Source: a virus. Taken from it: a stretch of DNA of 64,000 nucleotides. Below, in pieces: positions 2,974-60,911 of the stretch. How positions within the stretch are numbered: position 1 is the stretch's first letter; every line of letters starts with the position of its first letter. Position numbers and translations under genes: made by a program. The notes under the pieces were generated by a model. That model was not told the DNA's origin. It made no database searches and saw only the letters and a program-made list of their open reading frames with translations. The stretch spans positions 1 through 64,000 of IMG/VR virus record IMGVR_UViG_3300034031_000013. One strand, written 5' to 3'.

Positions 2974-3315
2974 TTAATCTCTTTTGTTTGTAAGTAAATT
3001 AAATAGCTTCTCTTTATCTGCTTTGAGTTCTTCTATTAATTGATTCTTACTATCTATCAATTGATCTTTAGTATTTAATATTTCCTGAACAGCCGGTGTA
3101 AACCCCATTTCAACTGGCGCAGGTTCAATAAGGAGCGCAAGATCAATGTTTAACTTTGTCTTTACATTCTCTATCATATCCAAGCTAAGTTTATCTCTAC
3201 CACACCAAGCAGTAAGCGTTTGGCGGCTTATTCCTAAACTCTTTGCGGCATCTTCCATTCTTAACCCATTGTTTTGCAAAGCTTGTTTTAAAATAATTCC
3301 CTTGATTTTCAGCAT
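2974..3315 (-). CDS. XRE-type helix-turn-helix repressor, 113 aa
   Basis: Residues about 15-50 form a classic helix-turn-helix (RMEDAAKSLGISRQTLTAW). The rest is a charged, heptad-like helix (KDQLIDSKNQLIEELKADKEKL) that should mediate dimerisation. There is no S24/LexA-type protease domain, so induction would need an anti-repressor rather than self-cleavage. I start it at the ATG at 3315 because the upstream TTG overlaps a -7 box (3331-3338). It faces the rightward early promoter at 3352-3382, which carries a palindrome between its two promoter elements, the arrangement of a phage immunity repressor. Confidence 0.85.
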   Translation of the reverse strand: MLKIKGIILKQALQNNGLRMEDAAKSLGISRQTLTAWCGRDKLSLDMIENVKTKLNIDLALLIEPAPVEMGFTPAVQEILNTKDQLIDSKNQLIEELKADKEKLFNLLTNKRD

Positions 3316-3330
3316 GTTATGTATTTGTGA

Positions 3331-3338
3331 CAAAAATA
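3331..3338 (-). promoter_or_regulatory. Probable promoter -7 box for the repressor gene
   Basis: Read on the minus strand this is TATTTTTG, an exact TAnnTTTG Bacteroidota -7 element, 15 bp before the repressor ATG. A -33 TTG is not obvious. Confidence 0.45.
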
Positions 3339-3382: not shown

Positions 3383-3444
3383 TTTTGTCATTAGGAATTA
3401 ACGACTTCACAAAAGTACAACTTTTAATCAAATAACCAAACAAG

Positions 3445-7462: not shown

Positions 7463-7469
7463 ATCATAT

Positions 7470-7539
7470 CTGCCTTTAGTTTAAGCAAAACAACCCTTGC
7501 AAGTGGGGAGATGGAGGTTCGAATCCTTAAGGCAGACCA
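7470..7539 (+). tRNA. tRNA-like element, possibly degenerate
   Basis: Acceptor CTGCCTT pairs with AAGGCAG, followed by A and an encoded CCA. D-arm is GTTT-AAGCA-AAAC. The T-arm is GAGG-TTCGAAT-CCTT with a standard T-loop. The anticodon arm is poor: CCCT-TGCAAGT-GGGG gives anticodon CAA but with G instead of U at position 33, while a shifted loop with U33 would read GCA (Cys) but lose a stem pair. D-loop and T-stem are one base short. It is either a divergent phage tRNA or a tRNA mimic. Confidence 0.5.
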
Positions 7540-7647: not shown

Positions 7648-7676
7648 GCCCGTATCTGCACTGTACGGGCTTTTTT
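7648..7676 (+). terminator. Rho-independent terminator
   Basis: GCCCGTA (7648-7654) with TACGGGC (7664-7670) then six T. A smaller hairpin (TGTTC/GAACA, 7629-7646) sits just in front. Ends the transcript that carries the small-gene run and the RNA elements. Confidence 0.85.
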
Positions 7677-7689
7677 ATTAACCAAGATG

Positions 7690-7849
7690 CTAATTAAGCT
7701 AGTTTAACATGAACAGCCACAGCCTGCGCGCTGACCTTAGTAGTGCCTATCTAACAGACTGCAATAATTCTGGGGCGTGAAGAGTAAGAGGTGAGATGCC
7801 TCATTAGAATAGTTGAGGGAAAGGCTTGAAATATAGTCTTTCCTTTTTT
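7690..7849 (+). ncRNA. Possible small RNA between two terminators
   Basis: About 130 nt without a reading frame lies between the terminator at 7648 and another at 7818. It contains short hairpins such as GAGG-TGAGATG-CCTC. The layout fits a separate small RNA or a 5' regulatory leader that controls the viperin unit by attenuation. No promoter box was identified with confidence. Confidence 0.35.
7818..7849 (+). terminator. Rho-independent terminator or attenuator
   Basis: GGAAAG (7818-7823) with CTTTCC (7838-7843), then six T. It lies 23 nt before the first gene of the viperin unit. Confidence 0.75.
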
Positions 7850-7871: not shown

Positions 7872-7976
7872 ATGGAACCCTACAAATTAGCTATAGTACT
7901 ATTTGCCTTGATAGATGCAATAATAATTGTATACAGCTTATCAAGCGCAATGGAGGATAATACAGAGGAATTTTGA
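7872..7976 (+). CDS. Small membrane protein, 34 aa
   Basis: Single hydrophobic helix (LAIVLFALIDAIIIVYSL) then an acidic tail. First frame after the attenuator-like terminator and 1 base before the next gene. Plausible single-span protein of unknown role. Confidence 0.45.
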   Translation: MEPYKLAIVLFALIDAIIIVYSLSSAMEDNTEEF

Positions 7977-7977
7977 T

Positions 7978-8121
7978 ATGAGAGAAAGAACATCGGTAAG
8001 AGGCTTTGATGAATTAGAGACATTGCCAAGAGCAGAACCAATATCAGGCATCCCTTTACACCTTACAAGAGAAGAGATAAGGAAGTTCTACGAGAAGAAG
8101 AAACTACAGAATAATAAATAA
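7978..8121 (+). CDS. Hypothetical protein, 47 aa
   Basis: I use the ATG at 7978; a longer frame upstream overlaps the preceding gene and lacks a good start. It has the 'TSVRG' string shared with the gene at 846 and a basic C-terminus (REEIRKFYEKKK). Four bases separate it from the viperin gene, so the two are co-transcribed. Confidence 0.55.
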   Translation: MRERTSVRGFDELETLPRAEPISGIPLHLTREEIRKFYEKKKLQNNK

Positions 8122-8125
8122 CCAC

Positions 8126-8953
8126 ATGAAAATATTTGAAACCGTATCATTCCATATTGTGAAGCCTTGCAACATGAAATGTAAATTCTGTTATGCCACA
8201 TTCGAAGATATGCACGTAGGCGCACAGATGTCACTTGAACACGCCTGTACTGTAATAACCAAGTTGTATTTATCGGGAGTTCAGAAGATAACATTTGCAG
8301 GTGGTGAGCCATTGCTGTACAAGCACATAGACGACTGTATAAGCTTCTCGAAAGGGCTAGGCATGACAACTAGCATAATAACAAATGGTAGCTTAATAAC
8401 CCACCAATGGCTTGTCAAAATGCAAGGAAAACTTGATTGGATAGGTATATCGGTTGATAGTTTAGACCCGCGCACCAATGATTTGATTGGTAGGCGAACT
8501 AAAATGAAAATAGACTACCACGCCCTAGTTAATAATATAAACTTCTACGGATTTAAGCTTAAAATAAATACAGTTGTCAATTCCTTTAACAAGGACGAGG
8601 AAATGAACGAGTTCTTGAATATCGCCAATCCTAGTAGGTGGAAAGTATTTCAAGCACTAAGAGTTGAAGGGCAAAATGATTCTCAATTCGACGAAGTGAA
8701 AGTATCAGATGATGAGTTTGAAGCATTCTTAGAACGACATTCAAGCCAAGTATCATTAGTCCCAGAGAGCAACGAATCAATGACCGCTAGTTACCTTTTA
8801 ATTGACCCATTAGGCAGGTTATTTGAAAATAGCTTAGGCTCTCATACTTATTCAGATTCATTAATTAACAATAATATAGAACACTGCTTATCGCAAATAA
8901 GCCTTGACAGGGATATGTTTCTCAAAAGAGGCGGAGTTTACGAATGGGCTTAA
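8126..8953 (+). CDS. Viperin-family radical SAM enzyme, 275 aa
   Basis: Radical SAM cluster motif C15-x3-C19-x2-C22 in CNMKCKFCYA; GGEP at 59-62 for SAM binding. The family-specific parts are the strongest evidence: WKVFQALRVEG (172-182), FLERH (201-205), LVPESN (211-216) and the C-terminal FLKRGG (265-270) all closely match animal viperin (RSAD2). Viperins convert a nucleoside triphosphate such as CTP to its 3'-deoxy-3',4'-didehydro form, which stops RNA chains. The membrane helix of animal viperin is absent, as in prokaryotic viperins, and the C-terminal tail is short (ends VYEWA). The substrate base cannot be read from sequence. A role in blocking competing phages is an inference from its known antiphage activity in bacteria. 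Finding it in a phage is unusual. Confidence 0.93.
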   Translation: MKIFETVSFHIVKPCNMKCKFCYATFEDMHVGAQMSLEHACTVITKLYLSGVQKITFAGGEPLLYKHIDDCISFSKGLGMTTSIITNGSLITHQWLVKMQGKLDWIGISVDSLDPRTNDLIGRRTKMKIDYHALVNNINFYGFKLKINTVVNSFNKDEEMNEFLNIANPSRWKVFQALRVEGQNDSQFDEVKVSDDEFEAFLERHSSQVSLVPESNESMTASYLLIDPLGRLFENSLGSHTYSDSLINNNIEHCLSQISLDRDMFLKRGGVYEWA

Positions 8954-8965
8954 AATAACCACGAT

Positions 8966-9238
8966 ATGAAATCACTATTTGAAACCCTAGCAACACCATT
9001 AAGAAACCACGCTGATCTAGTAATAGCAGGAATAGATTCTGAAACAGCATCAAGAATTGTCTTTGACCCGCTAAAACAAGTACAGGACGAGGTAGATGAC
9101 GAACGCTTAAATGAAGCCTTTAGACGTGCTTTTATATGGGGGCAGATGCAACAGTTGAAGTTAGATAACGGACGCGCCACACAGTCTGATTTCGAGGCTA
9201 TGGAGGCGTGTATAGAGGATGTTAGAAAGATTCTATGA
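8966..9238 (+). CDS. Hypothetical helical protein, 90 aa
   Basis: Acidic, wholly helical by composition. It follows the viperin gene by 12 bases and overlaps the next gene by 4, so it is in the same transcript. No nucleotide-kinase motif (P-loop) is present, which matters because some bacterial viperins pair with such kinases. Confidence 0.65.
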   Translation: MKSLFETLATPLRNHADLVIAGIDSETASRIVFDPLKQVQDEVDDERLNEAFRRAFIWGQMQQLKLDNGRATQSDFEAMEACIEDVRKIL

Positions 9239-9525
9239 TCCCCGACATTCAAACCCTTCTCATTCACTACCCACACTTAACCGTTGGGGAGTATTGCAAA
9301 CAGTTTCTAGGTATTGATATGGTAAAGGAGACTGAACCGATCAAGCCTGAATATGAAACCGTTCGCCTGATCTCTAAGATTAACGAATCTATTGCTATAG
9401 AACAGGCTAGAGCAAATGGGTATGAGAAAAGACCGAGAATCAGAAACAATAACATCAGAAGCACACCCGAATACGGGATAGACAAAAAGCAATTCATTTA
9501 TCAAAAGAGATACGGAGACTATTAA
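9235..9525 (+). CDS. Hypothetical protein, 96 aa
   Basis: Starts in the stop of the previous gene. N-terminal segment 'HYPHLTVGEYCKQFLGI' looks like a short helical motif; the C-terminal third is basic and Asn/Arg-rich (KRPRIRNNNIRS), which could bind nucleic acid. Unknown family. Confidence 0.65.
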   Translation: MIPDIQTLLIHYPHLTVGEYCKQFLGIDMVKETEPIKPEYETVRLISKINESIAIEQARANGYEKRPRIRNNNIRSTPEYGIDKKQFIYQKRYGDY

Positions 9526-9526
9526 T

Positions 9527-9619
9527 ATGAAAAGGATAACCAAATCAGAGAGCTTCTTAACGGGAGCTTTTTTTATGTTCTGCCACTACTTCTTTGAGGC
9601 TTATAATAAGATGATATGA
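9527..9619 (+). CDS. Tiny hydrophobic peptide, 30 aa
   Basis: Fits exactly between two genes and its TGA overlaps the next ATG. Central aromatic stretch (FLTGAFFMFCHYFFEAY) may insert in the membrane. Confidence 0.4.
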   Translation: MKRITKSESFLTGAFFMFCHYFFEAYNKMI

Positions 9620-9957
9620 AAGATACAACTAAAGAATTTCAGTTACCGAGGGAGTTCGGTGAGAAATGGATAAAGGCTTTAAGAAGCGGTGAGTATAAGC
9701 AAAACACCGATGCTCAATTACTTGTGCCGGAAACAGGCTGTTATTGCGCTTTAGGTGTCTTTGCCGTTGCAAATGGCATGGAGTTGAGTGATGACGGCAT
9801 GGATGTATTAATCGACGGGAAATTAGCAGACTACAAGCCATTTAAAGACCTTATGACAAAAGAGGGAATGGTTAAAATCTATAGACTAAACGACAGTAAA
9901 GATGCAACCTTCCCCGAACTGGCAGATTGGATAGAACGAAATGTAGAGTTCGTATGA
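9616..9957 (+). CDS. Conserved phage protein of unknown function, 113 aa
   Basis: The pattern W-x-KALRSGEYKQ, then a Cys-containing YCALGVFAVANG, followed by a C-terminal 'DATFPELADWIE', recurs in many phage and bacterial proteins that I know only as hypothetical. Cytoplasmic, no membrane segment. Stop overlaps the start of the next gene. Confidence 0.75.
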   Translation: MKDTTKEFQLPREFGEKWIKALRSGEYKQNTDAQLLVPETGCYCALGVFAVANGMELSDDGMDVLIDGKLADYKPFKDLMTKEGMVKIYRLNDSKDATFPELADWIERNVEFV

Positions 9958-10217
9958 AACAGCCTATCGTAGTCAGTAATTTCAGTCAGCTATCCTACGC
10001 TTTAAAAGCAGGACACCCGCCTGTAGAGGTTAAGGAGAAGCCGAAGCAAGCGCATTCAGGTTCTTGGTCGGTTTATTATGGGAAGTTGCTTGTAGAGGCT
10101 AATATCAAGTACTACGGCCAATGTGTGAATAAAGTAAATGAGTGTAAACTAAACGGGAGAGATTACCCTAAACCGGAATTATTGAAAATCAAACCTTACG
10201 AAAATGGAAACAAATAA
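9954..10217 (+). CDS. Hypothetical protein, 87 aa
   Basis: Start taken at the ATG that overlaps the previous stop; a longer TTG form is less likely. Basic protein with 'SWSVYYGKLLVEANIKYYGQ' in the middle. It overlaps the annealing-protein gene by 14 bases, so it is probably expressed together with the recombination module. Confidence 0.65.
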   Translation: MKQPIVVSNFSQLSYALKAGHPPVEVKEKPKQAHSGSWSVYYGKLLVEANIKYYGQCVNKVNECKLNGRDYPKPELLKIKPYENGNK

Positions 10218-10941
10218 AGAATATCTATCAAGGCTATTGCCTTTATTAAAGAAGCCGATACCTCACCAATGGAGAGTACAAAGCTATTCAAAGAACAAGC
10301 CAGTAGCAACAGTTATGGCTTACGTGGACGCTAGGGACGTACAGGACGTATTAGATACCTACTGCGAGTACGGATGGCAGAGAAAGCACCAAATGCTTAA
10401 TGACAGGCTATATTGCTCTTTAGGAATACAGATGCCTGACGGGACTATTCAATGGAAAGAGGATTGCGGTACAGAAAGCAATCAAGATGCTGAAAAAGGA
10501 CAAGCCTCGGACGCATTTAAGAGAGCAGGAGTTAATTGGGGGATTGGCAGGTTCTTGTACGATATGAAAATTCAGTACGTAGACACCAATGTAAAGAAAG
10601 AAGGCAACAATCATCCTAACTGTGTGGATAAGCAAGGTAAACAGATTTACGATTTAACAACGTATATCAACAACCTTAACCCTAACGCACCGCAAGCCCC
10701 AAAAGCTTCTGTTATTGTGCCTGAACTTTCCACAGACGATAAAGTAAGGAACATGACAGGTAGAAGCAATCCTGAATTAGCTCAGTCCGTTGCAGATGCT
10801 GTATTAGCCTGCAAGAGCAGACAGGATATAATAGACCTTGTTGCCCATCCCGACTATAAGCAATACGAATCTAATGAGAAGTTTCAGAAGCTAGTAAAAT
10901 CAGAAATAGCAAAATATCCTAAACCTCAAAAATCAGCATAG
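10204..10941 (+). CDS. Rad52/22-family single-strand annealing protein, 245 aa
   Basis: The N-terminal half (about 20-140) has the Rad52-like pattern, most clearly 'GQASDAFKRAGVNWGIGRFLYD', which is the signature of Rad52/Rad22 and related phage recombinases. These proteins form rings that anneal complementary single strands during phage recombination and repair. The C-terminal 80 residues are helical and basic, typical of the variable tail. Next to it lie a DUF3127 ssDNA-binding-like protein and a PD-(D/E)XK nuclease, giving a complete annealing-recombination module. Confidence 0.88.
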   Translation: METNKEYLSRLLPLLKKPIPHQWRVQSYSKNKPVATVMAYVDARDVQDVLDTYCEYGWQRKHQMLNDRLYCSLGIQMPDGTIQWKEDCGTESNQDAEKGQASDAFKRAGVNWGIGRFLYDMKIQYVDTNVKKEGNNHPNCVDKQGKQIYDLTTYINNLNPNAPQAPKASVIVPELSTDDKVRNMTGRSNPELAQSVADAVLACKSRQDIIDLVAHPDYKQYESNEKFQKLVKSEIAKYPKPQKSA

Positions 10942-11307: not shown

Positions 11308-12027
11308 ATGGCAGAAGTCAAAGAGCAATTAGTATTCTTTGACCCAATAGAACACAAGTACACAGATAGAGAGGGCAATAGGCTAATTTCGGTTAGTCAG
11401 TTGCTTTCTTTGTTTAAACCCAAATTTGACCCGACAGGCGAGATAACAGCGAAGTATGCCAAGAAGCATGGAATGACTGTTGCCGAGGTGCTGGACAAGT
11501 GGAAGCAAATTAACACACAGTCCTGCACTTACGGAACATCGGTACATGAAGAAATTGAACATTACATCAATACCAAAGAGATAAGATCATCCGATCATAT
11601 CCATTACGTCAATCAGTTTGCAGAAATTAAATTTCAGGGAAGGTTATTCTCGGAGCGTATGCTTTACTGCCTTGATAATATGGTAGCTGGAACAGCAGAC
11701 ATCGTTGAACGGATTGGATTTTATATAAATATTTGGGATTTTAAGACGAACAAGGAGCTATCCAAGTTCAACAATTTCGGAGGCAGGATGCTTTACGACC
11801 TTTCCCACTTATCGGACTGCAATTTCAATCACTATCAGCTTCAATTATCGCTATACGGTTACTTGTGTGAACTAAAGGGGTTGAAGGTAAACGATTTAAT
11901 CATTCTTTATATGAATCCCAAGACCTTAAAGATGGAGTTCCATCGGTGCAGGTATATGAGGGATGAAGTAAAGTACATTTTAGAAACAAAAGACACATTA
12001 TGGGACAATCAAAAAATTCTTTCCTAG
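11308..12027 (+). CDS. PD-(D/E)XK nuclease, RecB-like, 239 aa
   Basis: The nuclease core is visible: GTSVHEEIEHYI (motif I helix), 'VAGTADIV' (metal Asp), 'NIWDFKTNKEL' (D-x-K) and 'HYQLQLSLYGYL' (QxxxY helix). This is the RecB/Cas4-type exonuclease fold. In phages such enzymes make the 3' tails used by annealing proteins, in keeping with the Rad52-like gene two positions upstream. Its last 28 bases overlap the start of the next gene. Confidence 0.87.
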   Translation: MAEVKEQLVFFDPIEHKYTDREGNRLISVSQLLSLFKPKFDPTGEITAKYAKKHGMTVAEVLDKWKQINTQSCTYGTSVHEEIEHYINTKEIRSSDHIHYVNQFAEIKFQGRLFSERMLYCLDNMVAGTADIVERIGFYINIWDFKTNKELSKFNNFGGRMLYDLSHLSDCNFNHYQLQLSLYGYLCELKGLKVNDLIILYMNPKTLKMEFHRCRYMRDEVKYILETKDTLWDNQKILS

Positions 12028-12493: not shown

Positions 12494-12564
12494 TGGGGGA
12501 TAGTTTAATTAATAGAACGTTGGCTTCATGCCATCAGATGCAGGTTTGAATCCTGCTCCCTCAA
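12494..12564 (+). tRNA. tRNA, best fold has anticodon UCA
   Basis: Acceptor TGGGGGA (12494-12500) pairs with TCCCTCA (12557-12563), with discriminator A and no CCA directly after. D-arm is GTTT with GAAC; the T-arm is a full GCAGG-TTTGAAT-CCTGC. The anticodon arm GTTGG-CTTCATG-CCATC (one T-T mismatch) has U33 and anticodon UCA, which reads the stop codon UGA. If shifted by one it would be CAU (Met), but the stem is then broken. UGA is used as a normal stop by this phage, so a UCA tRNA would be a suppressor. Confidence 0.72.
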
Positions 12565-12582
12565 CTAACCAAATCAAGCACC

Positions 12583-14964: not shown

Positions 14965-15159
14965 ATGACACCACAACAAGAATCCCTATTAGAGCAGGTA
15001 CTTGTAGAAATGAGTGCCTTGAGAAAGGAAGTAACAACCATTAACAAGGCACTCGCTTACAAAACCACAGCCGTTAAAAAGCAAGAATCCGTTCAGGATA
15101 TTGCCAATTCAATCATCGCCGAAACAATCCTCAAGGCGAAACAGAATCGCCATAACTAA
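14965..15159 (+). CDS. Small coiled-coil protein, 64 aa
   Basis: N-terminal heptad helix (LLEQVLVEMSALRKEVTTINKAL) and a basic tail. Last gene of the early block; its end overlaps the end of the convergent integrase gene by 4 bases. Confidence 0.65.
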   Translation: MTPQQESLLEQVLVEMSALRKEVTTINKALAYKTTAVKKQESVQDIANSIIAETILKAKQNRHN

Positions 15160-16505
15160 TACACAACCCTCGGAGGTCTTGGCCTCGATGCTATATCGCA
15201 CTTCAACTTTCGTAAATATGTTTCCGTTTGAATCGTTGTGGTGTGCCTGTTTTGGATTGAAATCTGAAACAAATCCCATCCCGCTTTAAACGCTTCTATA
15301 TTCCCTGTAGCCTTAAGTGAATATAAAGAGTGCTTGCCATCGTTGTAGATATTTAAGTCCTCTAAGGCGGCTTTAAATCGCGTAGAAAGCCCACTCCTAT
15401 CTGCTCTCTTAAGCGAAGGAATCATATCGGAAGTAAAGACGTAATAGTTGTCGTACTTCTTATCATCGAAGTATTGCTCCCAACCGAGTTTTTCAAATTC
15501 AGCTACAAGTGCGGGGTCAAGGTAAAGCTCGGTAAATATCTTCTTCTTTGTCTTGGTGCTACCAACGGAAAGGGAAAAGTAACCCTCCTTATATCGTTTA
15601 ACATTCTTAATCTTAATACGCCTTAATTCAGATATTCTGATAAACGTATAGAAAATTGTACGGCAGATATAAGCCATGAGCTTATTAGATATATAAGCCT
15701 TTCCAGGAACAACCCTAGCTATTACCCTTGCTTGATCGAAGTACTCAAGTATCTTCTTAAGTTGAACGGTAGAGAAAGGTTCGAATCGTTCACTGTCCTC
15801 TACAGACTCTTTACGGTCGATTGTAATGGATATATCTTTATAGTCATACCTACGTGCATAATAAGCAAACATAGCCCTTATAGAGCCTAATTGATTGTTC
15901 CATGTTGTATCTTTTATTGTGCCGCTTGTATATCGTTCTTCAAAGAATTGTAAGATCGTATTCTTAGTTATTTTGTCTAAACGGGCAGTTAAACAGTCCT
16001 GCTCTCTGCAAAACTCCTTGAACAAGTTAAACAATGAATTATACGTACCCTCGGTATTTTCTTTATTCTCGGGAGCGGCCTTTGATGGGTTGTCCTTTCC
16101 TGCCTTGATTTTCAACCACTGCTCAATAGCTTTTTCAAGTGTAGGTATTGGCGATGGGTCGTTGGCTTGGGAAAGTAGTTCTTCAATGGGTTTATCAACA
16201 AGAGGCGAAATAGCTACGCCTGTCTTTGGATCAACGCCAATAGATAATTGAGTCGCTACCGCAATGCGAATACCCTCACCGTTCTTCTTACGAAGCCTAG
16301 TGTTAGATATGTGTTCTTTCTTGTTAAGAATTTTGGAATAGTACTTTTGAGGGAGCCACTTGCCGTTATCGAAATCCCATATATGGTAGTAGATATACCA
16401 ATCTCCTTTCTCGGGAGTTTTAAGAACGGGAGCGGCACGAAAGAGTTCTTTACCTTGGGGCAAGTAATAGTAGTTACCATCTACTTCAATTCGATTTAAT
16501 TGCAT
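15156..16505 (-). CDS. Tyrosine-recombinase integrase, 449 aa
   Basis: Three parts: an N-terminal arm-binding-like region (1-110), a core-binding helical domain (about 120-220) and a catalytic domain. Catalytic residues visible are R290 (FIRISELRR), the beta-hairpin lysines near 318-320, the box 'HSLYSLKATG' with K398 where most enzymes have Arg, R420-H421 (QNRHTTT) and nucleophile Y430 (TETYLRK). The Lys for Arg change is common in Bacteroidota phage integrases. It integrates and, with a directionality factor, excises the genome. The probable attP lies upstream at 16544-16760. Confidence 0.93.
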   Translation of the reverse strand: MQLNRIEVDGNYYYLPQGKELFRAAPVLKTPEKGDWYIYYHIWDFDNGKWLPQKYYSKILNKKEHISNTRLRKKNGEGIRIAVATQLSIGVDPKTGVAISPLVDKPIEELLSQANDPSPIPTLEKAIEQWLKIKAGKDNPSKAAPENKENTEGTYNSLFNLFKEFCREQDCLTARLDKITKNTILQFFEERYTSGTIKDTTWNNQLGSIRAMFAYYARRYDYKDISITIDRKESVEDSERFEPFSTVQLKKILEYFDQARVIARVVPGKAYISNKLMAYICRTIFYTFIRISELRRIKIKNVKRYKEGYFSLSVGSTKTKKKIFTELYLDPALVAEFEKLGWEQYFDDKKYDNYYVFTSDMIPSLKRADRSGLSTRFKAALEDLNIYNDGKHSLYSLKATGNIEAFKAGWDLFQISIQNRHTTTIQTETYLRKLKCDIASRPRPPRVVY

Positions 16506-26517: not shown

Positions 26518-26536
26518 ACCCCCTGTATATACCTTG

Positions 26537-27601
26537 ATGAAAAATACTATCCGTCCTTTTAATTGGGAATTATTATCAATAACCAGATTTGTACTCGCGT
26601 TCATAGTGCTGGCGAATCACTTAAAAGATTTTACAAGTATTGGGATTTTCAATATATTCCCGATGTTTGGAGCGTTTGAAGCTATTTTTGGATTTCTGCT
26701 GATTAGTGGATTGTCAATTGGAAAGTCAATAGCTAAAAATAAAGAATCATATTTCAAAAGACGGGCAAACCGTATCTACCCTGTATACATAGCTAGTATA
26801 CTGTTTCAATGGGCTGTGATTCAACCTACAAGCGTTGATTTGTTGTTTATTGGGGTGTTGCTTTTGAATGTCCTTTTCCTGAATCAGATACTCACAAACA
26901 TATCATTTGTAGAACCTGCGTGGACATTAGCCGTTGAGGTATGGCTATACTGCCTAGCCCCTTGGTTTCTTAAGTTGTCATTTAAGCAGGTTTTTGTAAT
27001 TATCTACACTTCGGTTATATGTTACGTAGCGTTCACTTGTGGCCGTACATTATTCAACTGGAATTACTACTCAGGAATAGGATATGGGCTAAATATCTTA
27101 TTTTTAGCTTTTGTTTGGGTAATAGGATTCGCCCTTGCTGTTTTCCCTGAAAAAAGAAGATTTATAATATTAAATATCGCATTAATATTTATTCTACATA
27201 TTGGGTTGTCTGCTTCGATACAGGCAGCGTACCGTTATAAGCATAATGAGGTTAGTATGTTTATCGGTAGCGATCTTATAGGCTTCGCATTTAAGTCTTT
27301 ATGTTTATTAATGGTATACCTAGTAGTTGTCTATAATCATAGGTTCCCTACATTCACAACTTTTACCAAAAAAACATTCACATTGCTTGGTAATATATCC
27401 TACCCATTATATTTAACGCATATCACTTCATTCGTTTTATTGAAAAAGTGGAACATTAGCAACTCAACGGGCATGATTGTCTTTTCGTTAGGGGTTTCGT
27501 ATATTATATATATTCTATTTGACTCTTATAGTAAAAAACGAGAAGTAAAAGGAATATCTAAGCCTTTTTCAGATAAGATTTTAGAATATACTGGAAATTG
27601 A
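26537..27601 (+). CDS. Acyltransferase 3 family membrane protein, 354 aa
   Basis: About ten transmembrane helices. N-terminal 'LLSITRFVLAFIVLANHL' has the R-x10-H pair of acyltransferase-3 enzymes, then 'FGFLLISGLSIGKS', 'YFKRRANRIYPVY' and 'WTLAVEVWLYCLAPW'. These enzymes add acetyl or other acyl groups to surface sugars; phage copies change O-antigen or capsule and so receptor access. Start at the ATG at 26537. Converges with the tail gene at 27612, 11 bases apart. Confidence 0.87.
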   Translation: MKNTIRPFNWELLSITRFVLAFIVLANHLKDFTSIGIFNIFPMFGAFEAIFGFLLISGLSIGKSIAKNKESYFKRRANRIYPVYIASILFQWAVIQPTSVDLLFIGVLLLNVLFLNQILTNISFVEPAWTLAVEVWLYCLAPWFLKLSFKQVFVIIYTSVICYVAFTCGRTLFNWNYYSGIGYGLNILFLAFVWVIGFALAVFPEKRRFIILNIALIFILHIGLSASIQAAYRYKHNEVSMFIGSDLIGFAFKSLCLLMVYLVVVYNHRFPTFTTFTKKTFTLLGNISYPLYLTHITSFVLLKKWNISNSTGMIVFSLGVSYIIYILFDSYSKKREVKGISKPFSDKILEYTGN

Positions 27602-55324: not shown

Positions 55325-57718
55325 TTAGGCTACCATTTGCTCACCTTCCATTCCCTCTTGTTCTGCCATATCCTGCTGTTCAGCCATGTGTTCTTCCATT
55401 GCTTCCTGCTCAGCTTTAGCTAGTTCCTCTTCGTCTAGTTCTTCGGTTTGCCTGTCAATGAGTTTCTGCACAAAAGCAGGTATCGCAAACCCCGTTTCCA
55501 TGTTTTTAAGGAGGGCTTGACTTACCAAGTTTTGGTAAATAGTATCACGGCTTATCTTCCCCTTGGCGGCTTCTTTTGCGATTGCCATTTCATCGGACTT
55601 CTGCTGATTTTCTTGAGCCAGTTGCATTTGCTGTTGTGCCTGTTGCCCTTGAATTGCCTGTGCTTCCTGCGCCTGTTTTGCCTGCGCCTCCTGTGCTTGT
55701 TTGGCTCGTTGCTTAGTTACGAACGAAAGGTATTTAATCGCTTTCTTGACGTTGGTTTTGGCGTACTCCCGAATGATAAGGGAATCTTCCAACTGAATCA
55801 ATCCTGCACCTAGCGACCGTTCGATATTCTGCTCTAATTGAGCCATTTCATTAGCAGGGCTACCTACCTTAATCATTACATCGTAATTACTATCGGTAAT
55901 GTCCTTGCGCTTCTTAATAAAGTCAGCATTGGCTTTATTAAGAAGCTTCATGTACATACTATTGGCATCGGCTGATTTTAAGGTATCCCAAAGCCTTATC
56001 GCAATCCCTTTGACCGAATTGCCCATGATGGATATTAAACCTCCGTAGATGTGAGATGTGGCGGTATTAGAGGCTTTGATTTGATTGTTCATTACATTCA
56101 TTCCCTGCCTCTCGCCTACGCCTATCCCATCTACTGCTTCGTTTACACTGATATAGGTTCTGATGTTGTTGAACTCGAAGTTGTAGATGTTAATATACTC
56201 CCCAAGGCTACTTCCCATGCTATAGGTCGCATCCTGCATAGGCGGGTTCTTATTCTCCCCGTCGATACCTTTGCTTGAGTAATACCTATCACCTGTTTGA
56301 AGTCTTATTTCGCGAAGCTTCATTGGATTTGTTTTACCAATGCCTTCGCCTAAATCAAGGTCTAGTACCGAATCAATATCCATCTGCACCCCATTTGGCG
56401 GGGTTGTAGCCATTAACTGCATGATTTTCAGTATGGCGATATCCATATTAATAATCGAGGATTCTAAGTAACCCATTGGGGACTTTGGCAACATCGTTCC
56501 GTCATTACTCAACATATAAATCGAGTAGCTGAACCGCACATCTTCTTTGTCCTCGTTGCTTCTTAGCAGGTTTTCCATTTCACCCCACTTGGGAAGTAAA
56601 TCGGTTCCTACAATCCAGGCTCCCGAATAAATGGTTGGTATCGGGTAAGAGAACGGTTGCTTGTTAGGGTTGCTTGCTTTACCTTCTTTAAGGTCGAATA
56701 TCTTACGACCGTTATTATCTTTCCCCTTTACTCCTGTGATGTATTTAGTGGCACGATATTCAAAGAACATAATATCAACTAAGTACCCATCATAAGGGCG
56801 GGAATTAACATTTACGTCCTCCCATGCGCTATTCCAATCTCCTAGATTAGACGGGTTGCCATTGCTGTTAATGTTGTTCTTGGCGGCTTTATATAACTCC
56901 TTTTCAGGGATATTAGGCCACATACAGCGAACATCGACAATGCTCATCCGTTCCATGTGACCGCAGTAAGGGACTTTTGCCGAGATGTTCAATCCTTCGG
57001 TTGTGCCGTAGAAAAGAAACTCGGATTTGATGCGCTTAAGGCGGATACGATTAACACCGTCGAAGTAATTTTGGGTTGCGGCAAGGGCGGTGTCTACCAA
57101 ATCTCCTACCACTTCTTTTTTAATATCTTCCCAATCGTTATTGTACAGAACAAAGTTTATTCCCTCCTCCATGAGAAGTTCTTCACGCTCTTTGTCGTTC
57201 AATTCCAGCCACATATCAAGTTCTTCCTCGTTCTCTGGAACAAAGGCGTTTGGATCTTCAAACTCGACTCCCGTTTCCTGATTTATCGCCCCGATGAACT
57301 CCTTTTCCTTCATTCTAAAGGCGGCATCGTTCTTCTTATCTTCCTTGCGCTGTTTTATTTCAAGGGATAGACCTGTACAATCTACACGTTCTACCCGCTC
57401 CATTATGGAGTTAATAAGTATATCTCGAAAGTGAGGTGCTATTGGGCGTGGATGGTATTCTAATTTTATAAAGGCTTCGGCAGGGTTTATTCCCATTATC
57501 TCCCAATACCTTGCCATAGGCTGTTTCCCCGAGGCGAAAGCTCTGCTCGTCTTGAACATATCGTTTCGCTTCTGATAGTAGCCGTTGGTTCCATCAATAG
57601 TGGCAGCGAAGATTGATCGGGCTACAGAAATACCATAAGACCGTGAGTTCTTAATGTTGTTTGGTAAAATCGGGCTTGGGAACACCCCTTTTTCAAACTC
57701 TATTTTGTCTTCTGCCAT
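55325..57718 (-). CDS. Portal protein, 797 aa
   Basis: Follows the large terminase as expected. N-terminal wing-like part, then 'LEYHPRPIAPHFRDILINSIMERVERVDC', a helical stem-like region near 480-600 and a Gln-rich C-terminal coil (QAQAIQGQQAQQQMQL). Portals of crAss-like and related short-tailed Bacteroidota phages are of this large size. It forms the DNA channel at one capsid vertex. Confidence 0.8.
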   Translation of the reverse strand: MAEDKIEFEKGVFPSPILPNNIKNSRSYGISVARSIFAATIDGTNGYYQKRNDMFKTSRAFASGKQPMARYWEIMGINPAEAFIKLEYHPRPIAPHFRDILINSIMERVERVDCTGLSLEIKQRKEDKKNDAAFRMKEKEFIGAINQETGVEFEDPNAFVPENEEELDMWLELNDKEREELLMEEGINFVLYNNDWEDIKKEVVGDLVDTALAATQNYFDGVNRIRLKRIKSEFLFYGTTEGLNISAKVPYCGHMERMSIVDVRCMWPNIPEKELYKAAKNNINSNGNPSNLGDWNSAWEDVNVNSRPYDGYLVDIMFFEYRATKYITGVKGKDNNGRKIFDLKEGKASNPNKQPFSYPIPTIYSGAWIVGTDLLPKWGEMENLLRSNEDKEDVRFSYSIYMLSNDGTMLPKSPMGYLESSIINMDIAILKIMQLMATTPPNGVQMDIDSVLDLDLGEGIGKTNPMKLREIRLQTGDRYYSSKGIDGENKNPPMQDATYSMGSSLGEYINIYNFEFNNIRTYISVNEAVDGIGVGERQGMNVMNNQIKASNTATSHIYGGLISIMGNSVKGIAIRLWDTLKSADANSMYMKLLNKANADFIKKRKDITDSNYDVMIKVGSPANEMAQLEQNIERSLGAGLIQLEDSLIIREYAKTNVKKAIKYLSFVTKQRAKQAQEAQAKQAQEAQAIQGQQAQQQMQLAQENQQKSDEMAIAKEAAKGKISRDTIYQNLVSQALLKNMETGFAIPAFVQKLIDRQTEELDEEELAKAEQEAMEEHMAEQQDMAEQEGMEGEQMVA

Positions 57719-57773: not shown

Positions 57774-60700
57774 TTAAGCACCTCCTAGCCGATACGTCTT
57801 GATGTATCTGATACCTGACTGCTTTGATTGGATTGGCTTGGTTTTTTCTTTTAATGCCATAAGGGAATATCCAAATGCCATGCCCGCATCATAGTCGGTA
57901 CGTTCTTTAATGTTGAACTTGAGCATATCCCTTAAAATTCTAATGAAGTAGATTTTCTCCATGTTATTTAAGGCGTACTCTACCATTTCGGTAAGGTGTT
58001 CTTCCCGCGATTGCGTGTCTTGCGGGGCTATGCCGTATACTTCTGAGTCATCGGCACGTTTAGTAGTAACGAGGTAGCCGAATTTCTTTTTTTGGTCTAT
58101 AGGGCTTGCTAAGCGCCTTGCTTCGTCCGTTGCGTAATCCTCCCAATCGGTAGGTGAACGCTCGGCAAGCATCCGTATTCCGTAGTATTCTAAACCCCAA
58201 AAGATTTGATTGTGAAACTCCTGTTTAGTTTTTGGCCTGCCGATAAACATTGCTACTGGCATCCCTGAATTGTGCGGGTTAAGCGCATTTCGCCGTTTAA
58301 ATATCACACAGCAAGCATCCGAACCTTTATCAACCGTTTGCTTGGCGTTGGCGAATGTATCAAGCCCTGCCGCCCCGTACGAGGTGTTATCGGGGCATTT
58401 AATACTCCCCTTAAAGGCGAACTTATTTGCTTCTTCAAACGGCAGTAATTCAAGGATATGCCACATCCCTTCTGAATTATCTACAAATTCTACCTTTCCG
58501 CCATCGGGTTTCTTAAACAAGCCTCTACGCCCGTTTTCATCGCCTTTATGGGTAGCGTCGTTCCAAGGAGTTTTCCCTTTTGATTTTATAATTTCCTCTA
58601 CCCGCTCGATTTGATTATTGAGGTCGATTGTATTGAAGTGGCAAAGATTATTGGCGGATTTAAATACCTCCTCGGGATTGTAAGGAACCATACGAACCTC
58701 CTCCATGTAATCTTCGGGGTCGTTCTCTTTATTTTTACGCTGTAAATCGCAGTATTCTTTTGAGCCGATAAAGGCGTTTAGGCATCGAGGGTCTTTCTTA
58801 AGCCATTCTGTTTGCTCGGGTGTTGGGGTTTCTACAACGGAGTTGCCGAATTTGTCCACGAACCATTCATAGCCCATGAATCCTGGAATAAAGAGGCGGT
58901 ATAACTTCTTCTCGGTTTGCCCCATCGCATCCCGTTTCAACTGGCTTGAGCCGTCCCATACTGCTTTATAATTACTCCCGCCCTTATCTGCACTATTTAC
59001 GGTGGTAATCAATAGAAGCCGCCCAACGTTCTTGCCTGCAACTATACTTTTTAAAGCTATTGGCAGGTAAGCATTTATGTCAACCTCTTCCCATTTACCG
59101 CAATTCATCGAGAGGGTAAAATCCTCTAAAATCAACCGCTTGTCATCGAGGTTTTCCGTTTTCAGTTGTATCCCCACGTACTTACCAACACCTTCGGGTA
59201 TCACCTCTATTCTATTTCGCCTGTATTTAGCGGTTTGTTTATATGCCGGAAACTGCTTGCGGTTTAGTTTGGTTGGGATTATCGACAAATCACCACTTAT
59301 TGATACGACATAGCTATCCGTATTATAGTTTGTGTTTTTAAATCTGGGAGTTGATGTCGAGAAGCCTAACGATCTGGCAAGAAAGCAGATTTGGCCTATT
59401 AAATCTTCTCTTGACATGCAGATATGTATAGAGTATTTTCTTTGATCGCAATGACCATCTGTATCTATAATTCCTGCAAGTAACTGTAGCCGATTCTCCC
59501 TTGAATTAAACAGGTATTCATCCGGTATAAACTTATTTTTATAAACCCCCAATCGCTTCAACTCATTCAAAAGAGGATTTGATTTACTAGTTCTAACGTG
59601 CCTAACGAAATAAATACATTTGGCCTTTTTTGAATTTAGTGGCTGGTAAATTGATGTATCGTAGCCTAGTTTAGTTGCGTATTCTTTCAGATAGTCTATT
59701 AATTCACGATCTTCCGGTTCGTTTACAACAAACCCGATATTGCTACCAATCCCATCCCCAATCCAAGCACCGAAAACATAAGGGTCAATTAGGTTATCTA
59801 TTTCAGGAAAATCAATACCACTACTCCTTAGCCCAAATGTTGTCCGTTTCCTGTATTTGCCCAAGTTTATAAACTCCTCGGGGGTCATAGTCTTTATACC
59901 ATCGTCAAAAATTGACTTTACATTACACCTTTGCTCTAAGTATAACTTATGCTTTGAAGAAACGATATAATCTTTCGAGTAAGGCTGTTTGATACGGTAC
60001 ATGTCGTCGATACCCGAAACGGTATTTTGAACTTCTATTAGCTTCCCACCTTCGACAACAACCTTATCGCCAATCTTAATATCCTTAATCGCCTTGAAAG
60101 TATAGCCCTCAACCATGATTTTAGTTTCAGGATCGAAACACTCGTCAACTAAAAGCATCCATAATCCATCGCCGTCAAAAACGTTACCCGAAGTGGCTCT
60201 CCATTCAATCTTATTATTTAGTCCATCTCTGGTGCTAGATGTTGCCCGATCTTTAGAAGCTCTCTCTGGCGGTTTAGTTATATGTAAAACTTTAGCAGGG
60301 GTATCGTTGCCGCTAATGCGAGGTTTTAAAAACGGCGGCAGGCTAGCGAAGGCATTAACAAGCATCAACTTGAAAATCTTCTCCGCATCTCCTCCCGTCT
60401 TTGAAACTATTCCCTGTTCGATATTGGCCTTTATCAATGCGAATTGAAGCATTATGCTTATACTCATTGTAGAGACTCCAATACGCCTTCCCTTCATTAC
60501 GTTTCCGCCTCGACATCTGGGGTCGGAGAATACTATTTCCATAAATCGGAAGAATAAAAGCGAAGTATCCTTATATGTAGGGTACACCCCTTCCTTAGTA
60601 ATTGCCCATTGATGGAAGAAGTAACAGAACGCATTAAAGAACGTAGGGACTCCGTTAATTAGAATCCATTCACCGTTCATAATACGGTCTATTTCAGCTT

Positions 60701-60911
60701 CATACCAATCCCACTGTTCAGGAATAGGGTCTACATACCAGACCTTTCCCTGCTTGGGATCATCGTTCCAATCCCAAGACAAATATTCTTCGTGGCGATA
60801 CCATATTTGGTCTGTTTTTTTTAGATGAGAGCCGCGTATGTTTTTGATTTTCGGGATAGCAGGCGTAGTATAAATCAAGCCCTCGTAAATATCGAATGTC
60901 TGTACAGCCAT
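57774..60911 (-). CDS. terL: Large terminase subunit with intein, 1045 aa (699 after splicing)
   Basis: ATPase part: Walker A-like 'GRRIGVST' (about 142-149) and Walker B 'GLWMLLVDE' just before the intein. The intein occupies residues 258-603. The C-terminal nuclease part begins near 'GAAGLDTFANAKQTVDKGSD' with a probable metal Asp, and ends in 'MALKEKTKP'. Without the intein the length (699) fits large phage terminases of this group. It cuts and pumps DNA into the capsid through the portal encoded next. Overlaps the upstream gene by one base. Confidence 0.92.
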   Translation of the reverse strand: MAVQTFDIYEGLIYTTPAIPKIKNIRGSHLKKTDQIWYRHEEYLSWDWNDDPKQGKVWYVDPIPEQWDWYEAEIDRIMNGEWILINGVPTFFNAFCYFFHQWAITKEGVYPTYKDTSLLFFRFMEIVFSDPRCRGGNVMKGRRIGVSTMSISIMLQFALIKANIEQGIVSKTGGDAEKIFKLMLVNAFASLPPFLKPRISGNDTPAKVLHITKPPERASKDRATSSTRDGLNNKIEWRATSGNVFDGDGLWMLLVDECFDPETKIMVEGYTFKAIKDIKIGDKVVVEGGKLIEVQNTVSGIDDMYRIKQPYSKDYIVSSKHKLYLEQRCNVKSIFDDGIKTMTPEEFINLGKYRKRTTFGLRSSGIDFPEIDNLIDPYVFGAWIGDGIGSNIGFVVNEPEDRELIDYLKEYATKLGYDTSIYQPLNSKKAKCIYFVRHVRTSKSNPLLNELKRLGVYKNKFIPDEYLFNSRENRLQLLAGIIDTDGHCDQRKYSIHICMSREDLIGQICFLARSLGFSTSTPRFKNTNYNTDSYVVSISGDLSIIPTKLNRKQFPAYKQTAKYRRNRIEVIPEGVGKYVGIQLKTENLDDKRLILEDFTLSMNCGKWEEVDINAYLPIALKSIVAGKNVGRLLLITTVNSADKGGSNYKAVWDGSSQLKRDAMGQTEKKLYRLFIPGFMGYEWFVDKFGNSVVETPTPEQTEWLKKDPRCLNAFIGSKEYCDLQRKNKENDPEDYMEEVRMVPYNPEEVFKSANNLCHFNTIDLNNQIERVEEIIKSKGKTPWNDATHKGDENGRRGLFKKPDGGKVEFVDNSEGMWHILELLPFEEANKFAFKGSIKCPDNTSYGAAGLDTFANAKQTVDKGSDACCVIFKRRNALNPHNSGMPVAMFIGRPKTKQEFHNQIFWGLEYYGIRMLAERSPTDWEDYATDEARRLASPIDQKKKFGYLVTTKRADDSEVYGIAPQDTQSREEHLTEMVEYALNNMEKIYFIRILRDMLKFNIKERTDYDAGMAFGYSLMALKEKTKPIQSKQSGIRYIKTYRLGGA
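59103..60140 (-). other. Intein with LAGLIDADG homing endonuclease, 346 aa
   Basis: First residue Cys (CFDPETKIMVEGY, a Hint block A) and last residue Asn, followed by a +1 Cys (SMN|CGKWE). A block B-like region 'YIVSSKHKLYLEQR' lies about 70 residues in. Two dodecapeptides, 'YVFGAWIGDGI' and 'LLAGIIDTDGH', mark the endonuclease. Insertion falls exactly after the Walker B Asp-Glu, the most conserved part of the ATPase. The residue before the final Asn is Met rather than the usual His. Confidence 0.92.

Follow-up and report, generated by a model that had tools for sequence, protein, structure and literature searches.

A viperin homologue in the early gene block of a tailed phage and its phage-borne relatives

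Viperins are antiviral enzymes of cells, and they make 3'-deoxy-3',4'-didehydro-nucleoside triphosphates (ddh-nucleotides). A gene in a phage genome whose product resembles these enzymes raises two questions, i.e. whether the product is a true viperin and what an antiviral enzyme could do for a virus. The gene lies in the window, the whole stretch of DNA analysed, which is 64,000 nucleotides long and covers bases 1-64000 of a virus record in IMG/VR with a total length of 75,857 bp. The preliminary description of this DNA had proposed that a phage carries its own viperin. Profile matches, fold, catalytic residues and position in the tree all confirm this, and the gene lies in a complete phage genome.

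Identity of the gene product

The gene and its main motifs are the following.

8126..8953 (+): phage viperin, homologue of the radical-SAM nucleotide dehydratases, 275 aa, ATG start; assigned by profile, PDB, tree and AlphaFold2 model
8147..8149 (+): codon for Ser8, which aligns with mouse Asn77; the phage clade has Ser here, all other viperins examined have Asn
8168..8191 (+): CxxxCxxC motif, residues 15-22 (CNMKCKFC), the [4Fe-4S]/SAM site; its three Cys are invariant across the aligned viperins
8300..8311 (+): GGEP motif, residues 59-62, SAM binding; invariant

All the strings that had first drawn attention to the open reading frame (ORF) are present in it: CNMKCKFCYA (from residue 15), GGEP (59-62), WKVFQALRVEG (from 172), FLERH, LVPESN and FLKRGG. 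The protein is matched by the PADLOC profiles pVip-kinase (E 4e-84) and pVip (E 1e-83) and by the NCBIfam viperin family NF038283 (285.3 bits, with a cut-off of 180), while the next-best family, MoaA, reaches about 79 bits, its own cut-offs being 284-325. Viperins are also the best matches in a PDB sequence search (E 1e-48 to 1e-55). The AlphaFold2 model (pLDDT 89) contains the viperin fold, including the C-terminal substrate region, and in Foldseek it matches mouse viperin with UTP or CTP at TM 0.93 and E 1e-25; the best 30 PDB matches are all viperins, and the next family follows at E 1e-10. Such PADLOC, NCBIfam, PDB and Foldseek scores are far beyond chance, and the profile and structure scores rule out chance motif matches as the source of the assignment. 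Neither profiles, tree nor fold placed the protein with MoaA-like proteins or radical-SAM maturases, the outcome that had been named beforehand as fatal to the proposal, and identity as a MoaA, heme d1 or RiPP-maturase protein is ruled out on the same grounds. The product of 8126-8953 (+) is almost certainly a viperin homologue. When the model was searched against predicted viral structures (BFVD), no viperin was found, the top match having 17% identity.

The preliminary description had also stated that the strings match animal viperin closely. The strings are indeed those of viperins, but the closeness was overstated, as the protein is about 37% identical to mouse viperin, its own phage relatives do not conserve FLERH and LVPESN, and its neighbours in the tree are Bacteroidota and not eukaryotic proteins. 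With eukaryotic viperin/RSAD2 (mouse, T. virens) it shares, in addition to that identity and the fold (TM 0.93), an RGG-type C-terminal motif; it differs in lacking the N-terminal extension (about 70 residues before the radical SAM domain in mouse) and in not being nearest to this pair in the tree. Prokaryotic viperins (pVips; NF038283, PADLOC pVip) of the Bacteroidota branch are more similar, with full-length homology, the same catalytic motifs and fold, 36-44% identity and the nearest tree branch, whereas the window viperin is phage-borne, belongs to a separate clade with 100/100 support and has Ser for Asn at the mouse N77 position. Cellular loci of the pVip-kinase system carry a fused or adjacent nucleotide kinase. 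The window locus has neither: the protein is a single domain of 275 aa without a fused kinase, and a Pfam search of its neighbours revealed no adjacent one. Three cellular Bacteroidota viperins (L062, L115, L116) are about 465 aa in length and have a long extension C-terminal to the viperin domain, possibly a fusion.

The phage genome and the neighbourhood of the gene

An exact 127-bp direct repeat is common to the two ends of the record, so the genome appears complete; with the large terminase subunit (TerL) and the portal protein, this repeat marks the record as a complete tailed phage (Caudoviricetes), which also encodes virion proteins. Host DNA contamination is ruled out by the terminal repeat and the phage hallmark genes. 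The genes that define the phage are listed here.

2974..3333 (-): CI-like HTH repressor, oriented divergently to the early genes
15156..16505 (-): tyrosine recombinase/integrase
55325..57718 (-): portal protein, which marks the record as phage
57774..60911 (-): terminase large subunit with intein, 1045 aa

Lysogeny is plausible for this phage given its CI-like repressor and tyrosine integrase. Its host is likely to belong to the Bacteroidota, since TerL and one virion protein have their closest, though distant, matches among Cellulophaga and Flavobacterium phage proteins, and a close relative of the viperin occurs in a Chitinophagaceae metagenome-assembled genome (MAG) contig. The TerL intein, with Hint and LAGLIDADG homing-endonuclease domains, extends from near Cys259 to near residue 596; the TerL of the related record G005 has no intein. 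A 72-nt tRNA at 12494-12565 (+) was called tRNA-SeC(tca) by ARAGORN; it is too short for a selenocysteine tRNA, its anticodon assignment is unsure, and it is possibly a UGA-reading suppressor. Among ORFs of 100 aa or more, TGA is the stop codon of 7 of 20 on the plus strand and of only 2 of 35 on the minus strand. The gene at 26534-27601 (+) encodes an O-acetyltransferase of a type active on surface polysaccharide, and might be a second gene for superinfection exclusion or conversion. Close to the genome end, an ORF judged by eye to resemble an IS1595-type transposase is located at L008:13402-14328 (-), about 73401-74327 in record bases.

The claim that the phage uses host-type promoters did not hold for sigma-70, as a scan detected 24 sites against 31 expected, i.e. 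no enrichment. Sites with the Bacteroidota-type -33/-7 pattern number 8 against 3.3 expected, and one of them (TTTG...TACTTTTG) is found at 3410-3440 (-), upstream of the CI-like repressor at 2974-3333 (-); these counts are only suggestive of Bacteroidota-type promoter use.

The surroundings of the viperin gene comprise the following features.

7469..7538 (+): tRNA-Leu (caa), upstream of viperin
7648..7670 (+): intrinsic terminator-like hairpin upstream of viperin (z -3.4)
7815..7848 (+): another terminator-like hairpin, immediately 5' of the viperin cassette (z -2.7)
7872..7976 (+): lead-in ORF, 34 aa, with a hydrophobic stretch
7978..8121 (+): lead-in ORF, 47 aa, its stop 4 bases ahead of the viperin start
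8966..9238 (+): ORF of 90 aa, 12 bases 3' of viperin; no family match
9235..9525 (+): ORF of 96 aa, overlapping that at 8966..9238; no family match
9547..9572 (+): terminator-like hairpin closing the viperin cassette (z -2.8)
10204..10941 (+): Erf-like single-strand annealing protein, 3' of viperin
11308..12027 (+): phage exonuclease, 3' of viperin

Two tiny lead-in ORFs, which correspond to the two-gene lead-in described before, viperin and two further ORFs are thus arranged head to tail among terminator-like hairpins. A Pfam search of the neighbours at 7927-8121, 8966-9238, 9235-9525 and 9616-9957 gave no match, and a defence island around viperin was rejected after ten window proteins showed no PADLOC match. 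The terminator-flanked RNA that had been proposed at 7671-7848 stands only in part: terminator-like hairpins are found on both sides, but the stretch folds no better than shuffled sequences (z +1.0), matches nothing in Rfam and has no relative at other viperin loci, so that a structured RNA ahead of viperin finds no support; the stretch could be a short transcript. The viperin gene is on the same strand as the early gene block in which it is tightly packed, adjoins recombination genes and is distant from repressor and integrase. Its location amid early replication and recombination genes, which is not a typical spot for lysogenic conversion, makes a role in the phage's own cycle possible.

Phage relatives and the Asn-to-Ser change

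The search for the same gene elsewhere, which the preliminary description had suggested, yielded ten full-length relatives and one truncated copy. Nine full-length copies are in IMG/VR contigs (L001-L005, L037, L038, L039, L143) and one (L009) is in the Chitinophagaceae MAG contig of the Genome Taxonomy Database (GTDB); the truncated copy of 126 aa (L040, at G639:76922-77302), near the end of an otherwise large phage contig, is a decayed or rearranged one. Together with the window viperin, these eleven form a phage clade of 12. The ten full-length members that were identified first group together in an IQ-TREE phylogeny, as a single clade supported at 100/100, and a second tree places L143 in it with the same support. 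This clade, in which the window protein is found, falls within the viperins, beside cellular viperins of Bacteroidota and apart from the eukaryotic pair, and four other radical-SAM sequences are outside. Identity is 55-88% within the phage clade and at most 47% between phage and other viperins. Direct repeats are present at the ends of five records (G000, G005, G006, G008, G638), as in complete genomes, and complete phage genomes other than that of the window account for four of the relatives; TerL is encoded in the window record and in G005, G007, G008, G009, G638 and G639, and a tape-measure-like protein in G006.

When the ORFs of 11 records were clustered, viperin was the only gene family common to all 11, followed by HNH endonucleases (6 records) and TerL (5 records). 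No conserved partner gene that could act as an immunity factor was found, as beyond viperin only these two families are widely shared. In the same phage pairs in which viperins are 57-69% identical, TerL identity is 53% for G000 and G005, which have a structural module in common, and 23-30% for the others. Since viperin is conserved while TerL is divergent, and viperin alone is common to the 11 records, a transfer of the gene from phage to phage, or between hosts and phages, most likely took place after the phages had diverged. For the closest viperin pair, dN is 0.07 and dS 1.13 (dN/dS 0.06), a ratio which rests mainly on this pair because synonymous sites are saturated in most others; viperin GC tracks the GC of each phage, from 23 to 41%. 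Together with the sharing among phages, these observations indicate that the window viperin belongs to a lineage that circulates among phages under purifying selection, and is not a stray host gene.

Viral contigs also carry viperins of other lineages, i.e. a three-member group (L141, L142, L145), L138, L146 and L148-L150, suggesting that viperin has entered viruses on several occasions; the window lineage is the largest viral one among those found. The three-member group, close or identical on three contigs, adjoins genes with repeated KITRRQLRRLI-like starts. L150:4872-5870 is a viperin of proteobacterial lineage that stands by itself within a block of prophage tail genes encoded on the other strand, the classic position of a moron.

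The preliminary description had further suggested that the substrate pocket be checked. K54, K146, N148, R171, K173 and Y223, which the alignment places at the positions of mouse K120, K220, N222, R245, K247 and Y302, are the same in 10/10 full-length phage copies checked. In mouse viperin, these are the conserved pocket Lys, Asn and Arg residues and the catalytic Tyr. The mouse N77 position is different, and the window viperin departs here from ordinary cellular or eukaryotic-type viperins, a matter of subgroup and not of the published family definition: it is Ser in 12/12 members of the phage clade (L143 and the truncated G639 copy being read from their own sequences) and Asn in 36/36 others, made up of 29/29 from outside the clade together with seven distinct viral proteins that belong to other viperin lineages. 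In the AlphaFold2 model, Ser8 sits in strand beta-1, two residues ahead of an invariant His, and mouse N77 presumably contacts the nucleotide. Because Ser replaces what is Asn in every other viperin examined, the substrate preference of the phage-clade viperins is possibly altered; as all clade members share one ancestor, the change represents a single evolutionary event and may be neutral. A conserved Tyr of viperins is named in PMC9642334.

Possible roles and significance

The window viperin probably makes a ddh-nucleotide. The explanation that we prefer, at roughly even odds (about 0.5), is that an active viperin is expressed early and produces ddh-nucleotides that exclude competing phages. 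The enzyme would be made from the early gene block at a time when the phage is transcribed by the RNA polymerase of the host; with SAM and its [4Fe-4S] cluster it would remove the 3'-hydroxyl of a nucleoside triphosphate to give the 3'-deoxy-3',4'-didehydro-NTP, which would end the RNA chains of sensitive viral polymerases and would affect less the bacterial RNA polymerase, on which the phage depends. The benefit would be the exclusion of competitors or of superinfecting phages in the course of infection, and perhaps in the lysogen as well. That this lineage is the sole gene common to about a dozen otherwise mostly unrelated phages suggests a weapon, probably directed against rival phages. RNA polymerases of the T7 type are absent from most phages. 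No such single-subunit enzyme was detected in 17 viperin-bearing viral records (the window phage and 16 others, several of the 17 being fragments), the T7 control being positive; the earlier remark that no phage RNA polymerase is visible thus applies to this type, but it is weak evidence, since most phages lack one, and merely fails to contradict inter-phage exclusion. In E. coli, the reaction catalysed by viperin can be inhibitory to the activity of T7 RNA polymerase (PMC9642334), and viperins of Asgard origin confer protection against T7 on this bacterium (PMC11291487).

The Ser that distinguishes all members of the clade, at its place in beta-1 close to the invariant His, would also fit a neofunctionalised enzyme in which this and other clade-specific changes shift the substrate, for instance to a different base, to a diphosphate or to a nucleotide peculiar to the phage, and the product helps the phage itself to take over host transcription or nucleotide pools instead of excluding rivals. 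The proximity to recombination and replication genes favours such a shift, which we nevertheless regard as unlikely, as all other conserved pocket residues checked are kept and one clade amounts to one event that may be neutral. A similarly doubtful reading is that of a lysogenic-conversion moron, expressed from the prophage for the protection of the lysogen and with no part in lytic growth; the CI-like repressor and the integrase speak for it, and L150 provides an example of a viperin in such a position, but the window gene is packed on the same strand within the early block, far from repressor and integrase, and the four relatives in other complete genomes are in phages without established lysogeny.

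The weapon may be aimed not at other phages but at phage satellites, or at defence enzymes of the host that synthesise RNA or DNA, such as reverse transcriptases. Chain-terminator chemistry and the wide sharing among unrelated phages would agree with such targets, which are nonetheless quite improbable, as the loci revealed no satellite or defence context in common. Least credible, with hardly any probability left to it, is an inert host-derived passenger or host DNA binned into a viral contig: the truncated G639 copy speaks for it, and against it are the complete genome with terminal repeats, the ten intact relatives, the low dN/dS and the full set of catalytic residues. A bolder extension of the preferred reading, offered tentatively and in itself unlikely, is that the clade is exclusive to phages and passes among unrelated Bacteroidota phages as an inter-phage weapon, the Ser at N77 conferring a nucleotide substrate or product unlike that of all known viperins, which the producing phage and the host polymerase would tolerate.

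A viperin in a phage is rare and not wholly new, given that two viperin groups occur in the accessory genome of Vibrio Schizotequatrovirus (PMC12028318), likewise annotated in phages and as part of a phage defence repertoire. Those phages are T4-like, and their viperins were not recovered when tblastn with three different viperins was run on 50,697 isolate-phage records, a search that found no viperin. Prophage defence genes such as those of P2/P4 hotspots (PMC9122126) are comparable as phage-borne genes that would act on rival phages; they are variable hotspot cargo, whereas the window lineage is found in an early region and recurs in unrelated phages. What appears to be new is a phage viperin clade with its own Asn-to-Ser signature, in complete and otherwise mostly unrelated phages. 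In such a lineage the antiviral logic would be reversed, with viruses using an antiviral nucleotide analogue, presumably against each other, and it offers a direct test case for how a virus escapes its own chain terminator. The compact enzyme (about 275 aa), with a natural change in its pocket, would be useful for studies of substrate selectivity, and phages are vehicles that could spread viperins among bacteria.
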